50,386 bases of DNA. Source: a virus. Made by a program: the position numbers and the translations under genes. Positions 2,767-12,273 of this stretch are shown here, piece by piece. Every line of letters starts with the position of its first letter. The stretch's first letter is position 1. The stretch is taken from positions 1 to 50,386 of the IMG/VR virus record IMGVR_UViG_3300021964_000107. One strand, 5' to 3'. The notes under the pieces are model-generated. The model made no database searches, was not told where the DNA came from, and was given only the letters and a program-made list of their open reading frames with translations.

Positions 2767-3924
2767 TTAAAATCCCTCTGCAGCTTTTTCTCTAGTAATT
2801 AAATCCATCTCTTTAAATGCTAATTGTATTGCAACTTCAATTGGTGGAGCTCCATTACCAGTTGCTTCAAATGTTTTATATCTATCTCCACCATAAGTTA
2901 CATTCATACTTTCTAAAACACAAGTTGAGATTTTGTGTAGATATTGGTTATCTTTATTAGCATACATATATTGTATATCAAATGTGTTAGGAATAGTCAA
3001 TCTAGCTGCACTACCTTGTACCATCTCTGGTAACATATTTAATTTAAATGCTTTTACAATTTTTTGTATTTCTTCTGCTTCGGCTGCACTTTTTGGTATC
3101 ATTTTAAAATCATACTGAAATGACCTTTTTGGAATACCTTTAAATGCAAGTTCCATTCTTGGTGCTTTAATAAATCCTCTTTGCATTTCTACAACTTCCA
3201 TTGCACCCTCAAGGCCTGGTATCATATCTATTGCACCAAGTGCTTTTCTTATCATACCATCACCTATTTCAGGCCCAAGTGCTTTTAGATTTTTATTTAC
3301 TGTATCTGCAAGAGATTTACCACCAACAATATCTTGATATGCTTGTGCTCCTATTGCTGCAGCTGCACCTATTTCTGTATCTGTATAGTTTGCACCATAT
3401 TGAACTTGTACAGATGGAGGCATATAAAGTGCAATAGCAGTATCCAGTTTTACTGTCGGTGGTCTTTTGACATGAACAGTTGATATCTTTTTATATTTTT
3501 CTATTTGTGCATCATCTTCTGCTTTTTTTGCTGGTGCTGAACCACCAGCATTTCCAGTAGGGTCTTCTAATACTTTTCCGTTAACATCTTCTGTATGTCC
3601 ATGTTGTCTATTTGCTTTAGCTAAATTCTTTTTTCCTTCAGCTTTATTAGCTTGTTCTTCAAAAGTCAATTTTGCATTTGTTTGTTGATTAATATAAAAC
3701 ATAATGTAATGACCTTGATTGCCAGTGCCAGGCGGGCCTTGTACATCAAGTGGAAATGAATGGATTTTAGTGTTATACTTAGTTTGAGATAACCCAGCAG
3801 TATCTGATAGGTTTGACCCTTTACCAGCAACACCTAGAAGTCCACCTCTAATATTTCCTGCTACTTTTTTAAGTGCTCTTCCAGCGATACCTTGAGCTGC
3901 GCTTCTTAACGGATTAAATGCCAT
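2767..3924 (-). CDS. 48: baseplate tail-tube cap protein, gp48-like
   Basis: A 385-residue protein, first gene of the leftward late operon. The N-terminus is Gly/Ala rich. The C-terminal half (APRMELAFKGIPKRSFQYDF, then MIPKSAAEAEEIQKIVKAFK) matches the gp48/gp54 class, which has a tail-tube-like fold and caps the baseplate as the platform for tube polymerisation. T4 gp48 has 364 residues. A gp54-like gene is present separately at 4972, so gp48 is the best label. A T4-type late promoter lies 23 bases upstream of the start, on the same strand. Confidence 0.75.
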   Translation of the reverse strand: MAFNPLRSAAQGIAGRALKKVAGNIRGGLLGVAGKGSNLSDTAGLSQTKYNTKIHSFPLDVQGPPGTGNQGHYIMFYINQQTNAKLTFEEQANKAEGKKNLAKANRQHGHTEDVNGKVLEDPTGNAGGSAPAKKAEDDAQIEKYKKISTVHVKRPPTVKLDTAIALYMPPSVQVQYGANYTDTEIGAAAAIGAQAYQDIVGGKSLADTVNKNLKALGPEIGDGMIRKALGAIDMIPGLEGAMEVVEMQRGFIKAPRMELAFKGIPKRSFQYDFKMIPKSAAEAEEIQKIVKAFKLNMLPEMVQGSAARLTIPNTFDIQYMYANKDNQYLHKISTCVLESMNVTYGGDRYKTFEATGNGAPPIEVAIQLAFKEMDLITREKAAEGF

Positions 3925-3925
3925 G

Positions 3926-3933
3926 TATAAATA
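3926..3933 (+). promoter_or_regulatory. T4-type late promoter for the rightward virion operon
   Basis: TATAAATA, the exact T4 late consensus, 30 bases before the gp4 start. It faces away from a second copy on the other strand at 3947-3954. In T4 such sites are read by gp55 with gp33 and the sliding clamp; gp33 is encoded in this window. Confidence 0.75.
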
Positions 3934-3946
3934 CTCCTATAACTTC

Positions 3947-3954
3947 TATTTATA
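3947..3954 (-). promoter_or_regulatory. T4-type late promoter for gp48-gp53-hub
   Basis: TATAAATA on the minus strand, 23 bases upstream of the gp48 start. It forms a divergent pair with 3926-3933; the two elements are 13 bases apart and are oriented so that the two transcripts overlap at their 5' ends. Confidence 0.75.
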
Positions 3955-3963
3955 AAGATAAAC

Positions 3964-4410
3964 ATGGCATATAGTGGTAAATACATTCCTAGTAACCCTA
4001 AAAAATATAGGGGTAATTATTCTCAAATAATATATCGTTCACTTTGGGAACGTAAACTTATGGTATATTGTGATAAGAATGAAAAAGTATTAGAATGGGG
4101 TTCAGAAGAAATCATCATACCTTATGTATCGCCTTGGGATAATAAACTACATAGATACTTTCCAGACTTTTATATGAAAGTCAAACAAGCAAATGGTTCT
4201 ATCAAAAAGTTTATTATAGAAGTTAAACCAAAGTATCAATGTAAACCACCACCAGCAAATCCAAAAAGAAAAACTAAACAATGGTTGAACTCTGTAAAAA
4301 CATGGACAATCAATGAAGCCAAGTGGAAATCTGCAAATGAATTTTGTTTAGACCATAATATGGAATTTAAGATTCTTACTGAAGACCACTTGAATCCAAA
4401 GTATAAATAG
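3964..4410 (+). CDS. 4: head completion protein gp4 (nuclease-like)
   Basis: A 148-residue protein matching T4 gp4 (also called gp50/65), needed to finish the filled head before tail joining. MAYSGKYIPSNPKKYRGN leads into YRSLWERKLMVYCD, then LHRYFPDFYMK and IIEVKPKYQ. These give the E...PD...ExK residue order of a restriction-endonuclease-like fold. Length is essentially that of T4 gp4 (150). It is the first gene of the rightward late operon. Confidence 0.88.
   Translation: MAYSGKYIPSNPKKYRGNYSQIIYRSLWERKLMVYCDKNEKVLEWGSEEIIIPYVSPWDNKLHRYFPDFYMKVKQANGSIKKFIIEVKPKYQCKPPPANPKRKTKQWLNSVKTWTINEAKWKSANEFCLDHNMEFKILTEDHLNPKYK
4402..4409 (+). promoter_or_regulatory. late promoter at leaderless spacing
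   Basis: TATAAATA inside the last codons of gp4, followed by GTAGT and then the ATG of the next gene. With T4 late promoter geometry (element at -13 to -6) transcription would begin at the A of that ATG, giving a leaderless mRNA. The same TATAAATA-N5-ATGG arrangement recurs at 29488-29501. It could be a coincidence of the Lys-Tyr-Lys-stop codons. Confidence 0.45.
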
Positions 4411-11230: not shown

Positions 11231-11443
11231 CTATATTGGTAAAGTTGCTGTTTTTTCTAAAAAGTTCAATTCTCTTGCATTGGCCTCAATCTTTTCTTTA
11301 AGACCTTTTGTAATTAAACGACTTATAGAATCTGGTTCTAGATTATTTTTTTCACAATAATATAACACGGCATCCATATGATTTATCTCTTTATTTTTTG
11401 CAATGTTTTCTATTTCTAACGAAAATGTTTTAGCTGTTTGCAT
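11231..11443 (-). CDS. 33: late-transcription coactivator gp33
   Basis: A 70-residue protein matching the small gp33 of marine T4-like phages: FSLEIENIAKNKEI, then MDAVLYYCEKNNLEPDSISRL, and a hydrophobic C-terminus ending ATLPI. In T4, gp33 binds the RNA polymerase beta flap and connects it, with gp55, to the sliding clamp at TATAAATA promoters. Those promoters are present in this window. The ribosome site is AAAGGGAAACC, and a near-consensus early promoter lies 30 bases upstream. Confidence 0.8.
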   Translation of the reverse strand: MQTAKTFSLEIENIAKNKEINHMDAVLYYCEKNNLEPDSISRLITKGLKEKIEANARELNFLEKTATLPI

Positions 11444-11517: not shown

Positions 11518-11874
11518 TTATTCGTGTTCTCCACCCATATCTTGTGGGTCTTTTTCATATCTTTTACCATTATAGTAAATGTATCTGCTACGACTTGTTG
11601 TATGATAACCATCATTTCTAAGAAAGAAATCTGGTTTTCTTCTTGCAGTTTCAAATGTTGCAACTGTAACTGCGATTGCAGCCAGAATGATAATGTGTGC
11701 GATTGCAGTTACACCAAATATCCACATACTACTAAAATATGAACTAAATGCAATGCACCACATCCATGCTAGCACTTGCATTATCATATGTCTGGTATTT
11801 GTATGTGGAATGTTTTTTAATGGGTTTCTATCATGGTTCATTATAGATTCCCAAGTATCATAAATGTATTTCAT
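11518..11874 (-). CDS. two-helix membrane protein
   Basis: 118 residues from ATG 11874 (AGAGGTGAAT before it); a GTG two codons earlier is the alternative. The N-terminal 30 residues are polar. Hydrophobic segments follow at about 32-52 (MQVLAWMWCIAFSSYF) and 54-76 (WIFGVTAIAHIIILAAIA), then a basic/aromatic tail. It begins just downstream of the tmRNA, probably on the same transcript. Function unknown. Confidence 0.65.
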   Translation of the reverse strand: MKYIYDTWESIMNHDRNPLKNIPHTNTRHMIMQVLAWMWCIAFSSYFSSMWIFGVTAIAHIIILAAIAVTVATFETARRKPDFFLRNDGYHTTSRSRYIYYNGKRYEKDPQDMGGEHE

Positions 11875-11892
11875 ATTCACCTCTTAAATTAA

Positions 11893-12235
11893 GTGGTAGG
11901 TTATTCTGTTACTAGGAAACCTACCGAAACCCTATCCGATTACGCTGCTAGAGCGAAATCTTGAGGTGCAAAGTTATCGTTTGCATTTACTTAAATGAAC
12001 TATTAAGCGTTCAACCTACAATTCTCCTCTTGTCTATCCCTGCCTGTCAATCCTATTTCACCCCCATTAAAATAAGTCTTGCTTGTCGTGGTGATATGTT
12101 GTTGATACACATCCACTTAACTAATGTCTTTCTGTATTCCCAAAGTATTACTTCATCCATTTTAAAACTCATTTTGGTGGAGGTGATGGGTACTGCCCCC
12201 ATGTCCAGCCCAGTATTCAACTCGTATCAACAAAT
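11893..12235 (-). ncRNA. ssrA: circularly permuted two-piece tmRNA (ssrA)
   Basis: On the minus strand the acceptor piece comes first. It ends CACCTCC-A-CCA (12185-12175), and directly 5' of this is a 5-bp/7-nt T-arm-like hairpin (12202-12186, ATGGG/CCCAT). After a 109-base intervening segment the coding piece starts GGGGGTG (12065-12059), which pairs fully with CACCTCC to make the 7-bp acceptor stem, then GAAATAGGATTGACAGG. The tag reading frame (11984-11940) is GCA AAC GAT ... GCA GCG TAA = ANDNFAPQDFALAA, a classic degradation tag. An 8-bp hairpin (GGTAGGTT/AACCTACC) closes the coding piece. Order and tag are of the alphaproteobacterial permuted type. The two RNA ends at 12235 and 11893 are approximate. 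Confidence 0.92.
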
Positions 12236-12242
12236 TGTACTA

Positions 12243-12273
12243 TATTTATAACACATTCTCTTTGTAATGTCAA
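12243..12273 (-). promoter_or_regulatory. combined early/late promoter of the tmRNA
   Basis: TTGACA (12268-12273), 17-base spacer, TATAAA (12245-12250) makes a near-consensus sigma70 promoter. The same -10 region is also a perfect T4 late element TATAAATA (12243-12250). The predicted start near 12237 fits the 5' end of the acceptor piece. Confidence 0.75.

Follow-up and report, generated by a model that had tools for sequence, protein, structure and literature searches.

A phage two-piece tmRNA gene whose spacer probably serves as an exchangeable cargo slot, here holding a gene for a 35-residue protein

Introduction

The closest described relative of the locus reported here is the two-piece tmRNA (ssrA) of the methylophage Melnitz (MZ577095-MZ577098), which has already been published together with permuted tmRNAs in 17 of 47 contigs related to Melnitz, according to the accessible part of PMC9004378. 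Our locus lies in a 50,386-base virus record with T4-like genes, the whole of which was analysed and is called the window below. Melnitz, too, is a T4-like marine phage whose two-piece tmRNA is of the alpha type and lies upstream of a late-transcription coactivator gene, and the 142-nt Melnitz spacer also bears a reading frame led by a ribosome site (54 codons). A protein gene inside the Melnitz tmRNA is neither listed in three Melnitz records nor described in the accessible part of PMC9004378. Melnitz differs from the window in its tag, ANDNYVPVDYALAA, and in having a glutamine riboswitch after the tmRNA; no such riboswitch was detected in the window at the cmscan gathering threshold, or at locus L001 at E values up to 0.5.

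The pelagiphage HTVC008M (KC465899) likewise encodes a permuted tmRNA, which scores 83.8 bits against RF01849, but its spacer, read from the sequence as about 50 nt, holds no nested gene. This tmRNA (3922-4233, tag ANFNEYALAA) is absent from the annotation of the record. Alphaproteobacterial two-piece tmRNAs (RF01849) share gene order, T-loop, acceptor stem and tag layout with the window. Foreign spacer content has also been reported: the accessible part of PMC11915505 describes permuted tmRNAs whose spacer is occupied by a tRNA-Ala gene or by a repeat, comparable to a phage spacer with a tRNA-Arg(tct) gene described below. These are single cases from a nominally archaeal and another genome, and protein genes are not mentioned in that part of the paper.

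In the open-access literature that we searched, as far as its text was accessible, we found no statement of a protein gene inside a tmRNA spacer. Variants of the tmRNA gene are the subject of a 2009 paper by Mao and others, which may, reportedly, describe repeats in spacers. Phage tmRNA is already known in kind, and what appears to be new here is the nested, exchangeable cargo of the spacer.

Results and discussion

An intact permuted tmRNA gene on the minus strand

The original prediction, made from the letters alone, was of a phage-encoded, circularly permuted, two-piece tmRNA of the alpha type, and it named the alpha_tmRNA covariance model as the check to be made. A cmscan of the whole window gave a clear match to that model (RF01849) over its full length at 12277-11895 on the minus strand (106.2 bits against a gathering threshold of 50, E 4.3e-28), and the merged model tmRNA_permuted (RF04321) matched at 12236-11940 on the same strand (101.8 bits against 47, E 8.6e-19). 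At the gathering threshold no further Rfam family was found in the window, both matches falling at the tmRNA locus. ARAGORN independently called a single permuted tmRNA at 11849-12267, with the tag ANDNFAPQDFALAA. The permuted gene order that had been proposed is borne out by these calls, and the alpha type by the RF01849 match.

The anatomy of the gene is collected in Table 1. The acceptor piece with its CCA precedes the coding piece, which is the permuted order, and the acceptor stem forms 7 of 7 pairs, G3.U70 included. The encoded CCA, the 7-bp stem and the 109-base spacer had each been predicted and were verified in the sequence, as was the tag frame with its stop, on which ARAGORN agrees; a resume codon, a degradation-type ending and the stop are all present. 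The letters of the T-loop, GGCAGTA, had been read correctly but wrongly taken as unusual, since the loop of the alpha_tmRNA consensus aligned with it is GGCgGUA. The T-loop is uninterrupted by a group I intron, and cmscan found no match to an intron family in the window. The strand and an open reading frame that starts within the spacer are points beyond the original prediction.

The putative promoter lies inside the stretch covered by the Rfam model, and its TTGACA and TATAAA boxes were seen by eye in most of the relatives listed. The coactivator gene lies a little downstream of the tmRNA, with one other open frame between. An SmpB gene was absent from the four phage records searched (the window and L125, which are partial, and Melnitz-1 and HTVC008M, which are complete), so that host SmpB would be needed.

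Table 1. Features of the tmRNA locus in window coordinates
Feature	Position	Strand	Basis and remarks
Late-transcription coactivator gene	11231..11443	-	PF16805, E 1.1e-20; marker for the phage group
Coding piece	11895..12065	-	RF01849 match, whose end is 11895
Tag reading frame ANDNFAPQDFALAA and stop	11940..11984	-	ARAGORN, sequence
Nested ORF MDEVILWEYRKTLVKWMCINNISPRQARLILMGVK, 35 aa	12053..12160	-	Start in spacer, TAG stop inside coding piece
Acceptor stem 5' strand GGGGGTG	12059..12065	-	Opens the coding piece; its partner strand, 12185-12179, lies beyond the spacer
Spacer (intervening segment), 109 nt	12066..12174	-	Sequence; excision presumed from two-piece tmRNAs generally
Closing stem 3' strand AAGACTTATTT	12070..12080	-	Predicted fold
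Closing stem 5' strand AAATGAGTTTT	12164..12174	-	Predicted fold; pairs with 12080-12070
Acceptor piece	12175..12236	-	RF04321 and RF01849 alignments
Acceptor 3' strand CACCTCC	12185-12179	-	Followed by A73 and CCA 12177-12175
T-arm GGACATGGGGGCAGTACCCATC	12206-12185	-	Within the acceptor piece
Sigma-70-like promoter	12245..12273	-	TTGACA 12273-12268, 17 nt, TATAAA 12250-12245; sequence

The gene is conserved among phage relatives

Searches of viral contigs with the coactivator, with a pattern for the T-arm and with one for the tag region supplied the relatives. The sample rests on at least 120 stretches for each of two scans and on the best 80 in the coactivator scan, and the shares given here are therefore not prevalences. 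From the loci so fetched a profile of each half was built, and these profiles identified 261 loci with both tmRNA halves among the matches listed, of which 233 were distinct, with 192 distinct spacers. ARAGORN missed 92 of these 261, and counts of phage two-piece tmRNAs made with that program are therefore probably too low.

A decayed copy with unpaired stems in relatives had been named as grounds for rejecting the prediction. Among the matches listed, the CCA can be read in 232 distinct loci, and 229 of these instead keep all 7 acceptor pairs; both sides of pairs 4-69, 5-68 and 6-67 changed together across the loci. G3.U70, the alanine identity pair according to the accessible part of PMC3985003, was kept in 231 of the 232. 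Within the best-80 coactivator set, the tmRNA was present at 56 of the 59 loci having at least 1,500 bases upstream. From the pairs, their joint changes and this presence, the gene looks to be kept by selection and nearly universal among close relatives, by which we mean those of 69-100% coactivator identity.

Phage tmRNAs form a group of their own

The original prediction had further implicated a SAR11-type host as the source of the gene. In a tree of 99 tmRNAs, with the halves joined and the spacer excluded, a single branch (support 94/76) divided 53 phage rows from the rest, namely 16 bearing the label 'sar11' and 30 others. Fourteen of the 'sar11' rows are SAR11, while L391 and L403 are other alphaproteobacteria; L589, labelled alpha, belongs to the SAR11 genome G001. 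The window was merged in this tree with an identical row, its nearest neighbour being L126. The tags differ as well. Short forms unlike the window tag predominate among the 112 calls of the host set (ANESYALAA in 62, ANDKFALAA in 14, ANQKFALAA in 13), and the phage set contains 86 different tags, 9 of 173 ARAGORN calls sharing that of the window.

Because the phage rows stand apart and the tags differ, these sequences do not support SAR11 as a recent donor; they do support an old lineage of alpha-type tmRNAs carried by phages. The alpha type itself would fit recent capture of ssrA from a SAR11 host, as would the accessible part of PMC9004378, where the Melnitz gene is grouped with SAR11 and alphaproteobacterial genes; set against the separate phage group, the different tags and a different spacer design, we regard such a capture as very improbable.

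The difference between phage and host tags could also mean that the phage tmRNA opposes host trans-translation, as a decoy or through an altered tag, and is not a working copy; a passage mentioning coli in the accessible part of PMC11915505 may be read in the same direction. A decoy, however, would not need the tag frame, its stop and the LAA ending, which is found in 156 of the 173 ARAGORN tag calls of the phage set, nor would it need the nearly invariant alanine identity pair. We therefore think this unlikely. It is quite probable that the window carries an intact, working phage two-piece tmRNA gene and that the spacer excised from it is a slot for exchanged cargo, here the gene for a 35-residue protein. 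The evidence for the cargo is given in the following sections.

Phage spacers are long and varied

Among the matches listed, the 192 distinct phage spacers range from 8 to 410 nt. The longest belongs to L004 (Sinorhizobium phage Phosso), in which a permuted tmRNA above the cut-off (1952-2641) is absent from the annotation of the record; the GC content of this spacer is 50%, and Rfam gave no match within it at E values up to 0.5. We sorted the spacers into 25 of at most 25 nt, 38 of 26-56 nt, 55 that look coding, 1 with a tRNA gene and 73 longer ones (at least 57 nt) with no coding signal. In a strict test, a frame led by a ribosome site had to occupy more than 70% of the spacer and to exceed in length the frames of 95% of shuffles (p<0.05). 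Of the 129 distinct spacers that reach 57 nt, 35 passed, and the 55 'coding' spacers comprise these 35 and 20 added by family membership or frame reading. The 73 long spacers without a coding signal indicate that the cargo is not always a protein gene.

Alphaproteobacterial spacers are short against the 109 nt of the window. Loci retrieved with the T-arm pattern that was also used in the phage fetch, nearly all of them from SAR11, had spacers of at most 28 nt in 114 of 116 cases, most of 11-12 nt. A wider draw from the same bacterial class yielded a match in 178 of 190 genomes, and among the matches listed the spacer, estimated as the matched span minus 188, was at most 56 nt in 134 of 150. 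Closer reading within this draw covered the 30 best and 12 long-span loci, which are not a random sample.

The ends of the phage spacers pair with one another, extending the acceptor stem, in 134 of the 167 spacers of at least 26 nt against about 15 in shuffles, and inside this closing stem the content varies between loci. The interiors of the long non-coding spacers were no more stable than mononucleotide shuffles (mean z -0.27, 71 of 73 spacers). Scans of 16 such loci against Rfam at E values up to 0.3 found no known RNA in the spacers, their only matches being to tmRNA and, outside the spacer, to tRNA. Nine non-coding spacers (L169, L171, L181, L182, L093, L123, L024, L293 and L309) share a motif of the type CTGCA...TGCAG; judged by eye, it might fold into a pseudoknot that shows paired changes.

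The window's nested gene encodes a constrained small protein

The nested gene of the window begins in the spacer, and its stop falls in the first bases of the coding piece. Its product fits a family of about 35 residues with the core CINN.S..xA, for which we coin the name CINNYS. In 10 distinct sequences the frame was open throughout, each of the other two frames containing stops in all 10, and pN/pS was 0.30 in frame (0.31 with 11 sequences) versus 1.26 and 1.35 in the other frames; none of 200 column shuffles reached so low a value. A structure model from 18 sequences predicted two helices (residues 3-19 and 24-32) at a mean pLDDT of 89.6. CINNYS had no solid match in Pfam or PHROG; nested proteins compared with PHROGs gave nothing better than E 0.025, and a tblastn search with two versions of the nested protein against named phages returned only matches at E 0.8 or worse.

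The family also occurs outside tmRNA genes. Of the 74 CINNYS relatives found, 50 have a tmRNA half on either side, 1 adjoins a coding half alone and 23 have no tmRNA in their neighbourhood; one of the two search patterns included letters of the tmRNA edge, which biases this division towards nested copies. The free copies retain the start and the CINNYS core and are packed tightly between genes, their start often overlapping or directly following the previous stop; in L499 the copy directly follows the coactivator gene. The free copies of L443 and L444 (about 1501-1605) end in LMGAV, encoded by GATGGGGGC; the tmRNA edge, with its G tract, seems to have left a scar here, as if the gene had departed from a tmRNA.

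These observations bear on an account in which the window holds a plain phage two-piece tmRNA with neutral filler as its spacer and the open frames arise by chance. The existence of close relatives with spacers of 8-25 nt (the 25 shortest of the 192) means that the content is dispensable, and the ribosome site of the window's nested gene is weak (TGAG); AGGA, GGAG or GAGG occurs in 13 of 30 CINNYS members. Filler would, however, predict neither the constraint seen in one frame against the two others and the column shuffles, nor several unrelated protein families with low pN/pS, nor the free-standing CINNYS genes, and we judge it very improbable.

Nested copies seem fitted to a closing stem

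When the region of T-arm, acceptor stem and spacer was folded, all 30 distinct nested CINNYS copies were predicted to form 7-14 closing pairs in addition to all 7 acceptor pairs, with 5 to 10 bases just 5' of the start codon paired. The 3' strand of the closing stem is part of the nested frame, being formed by its A-R-L codons, and ARL is kept in 29 of the 30 nested copies versus 11 of 23 free ones, so that the nested copies seem fitted to the stem.

Conservation of the frame must then be partly at the level of RNA, and one may ask whether a structured spacer could account for all of it, with no protein made. The closing stem predicted in all 30 copies and the retention of its ARL codons mainly in nested copies would suit this account. 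It does not explain why copies outside any tmRNA keep the start and the core, or why the frame has accumulated far more synonymous than amino-acid-altering change, and we consider it decidedly improbable.

Spacer content moves between tmRNA backbones

The window and L126 are identical at 107 of 110 and 181 of 191 positions in the two flanks, with spacers of 109 versus 8 nt. In a tree of 98 tmRNA backbones (about 230 columns), in which the window is present by name and L080 and L496 sit on long branches, close relatives include L126 and L074 with 8-nt spacers, L144 with a 50-nt hairpin and L142 with a tRNA gene. The 30 distinct CINNYS carriers required 14 changes on this tree, at least 8 of them forced by well supported branches, and a single clade of carriers was rejected (p-AU 1.07e-85). 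As reconstructed from these backbones, spacer content moves between tmRNAs. The L142 spacer holds a complete tRNA-Arg(tct) gene.

A possible order of events

In the working gene that we favour, host RNA polymerase would transcribe the tmRNA gene from its own sigma-70-like promoter, and host enzymes would cut out the spacer to leave two tmRNA pieces. Host AlaRS would charge the molecule through G3.U70, and host SmpB would bring it to stalled ribosomes, where the tag would be added. As originally proposed, the molecule may act on ribosomes halted on cleaved mRNA or redirect degradation. Translation of the nested gene would take place on the precursor, ahead of closure of the tRNA-like part. Since the 3' strand of the closing stem is made after most of the frame has passed, translation could proceed on the growing transcript; once the downstream half is made, the stem would cover the region before the start codon and translation would be shut. 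We infer this order of translation, folding and cutting from the predicted folds.

More tentatively, and with real doubt, the spacer might be a dedicated slot for small genes in which maturation and translation exclude each other, the stem over the ribosome site being complete only after transcription of the downstream half, each transcript giving a burst of microprotein and then one tmRNA, and recombination in the conserved tmRNA arms spreading the cargo between phages. Were the slot real, it would hold many small phage protein families, testable in an isolate (Melnitz on OM43), would offer a natural route to express cargo from the promoter of an RNA gene and would give a fresh angle on why phages carry tmRNA. 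Protein genes nested in stable RNA genes are easily missed, and the three Melnitz records mark the tmRNA alone.

Other nested families

In-frame pN/pS was also obtained for other nested families: 0.25 in a hydrophobic family, WSICAD (11 sequences), 0.33 in FEVG (4), 0.39 in the Melnitz family (4), 0.61 in MFxxL (5), 0.23 in a DUF2061-like family (3), and 0.45 and 0.54 in two families of 2 sequences each. For naming the nested proteins the only suggestive matches were to DUF2061 (E 1.8e-4, just under the Pfam cut-off) and to HNH, described below. WSICAD has 251 relatives, and 73 of the best 80 lie between both tmRNA halves; L089, L102, L198 and their relatives carry it in 159-nt spacers. Free relatives exist for other nested families as well. 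By eye, the TM-family loci L548, L549, L551 and L572 look free-standing, and L554 looks like a divergent tmRNA.

Several single loci deserve mention. The L283 spacer contains a frame of 104 residues whose HNH-like motif falls just short of the Pfam HNH cut-off (E 3.5e-4), and its product is perhaps a homing nuclease able to move cargo. The nested protein of L054, which has six free relatives among the fetched loci, resembles by eye the product of the gene that immediately precedes the Melnitz tmRNA (L002). In L082, L136 and L287 the coding piece starts with GGGGGCGAAACAG, in which CAG replaces the TAG of most relatives; the nested frame consequently extends further into the tmRNA in L082 and L136, and in L287 it continues into the tmRNA in another frame.
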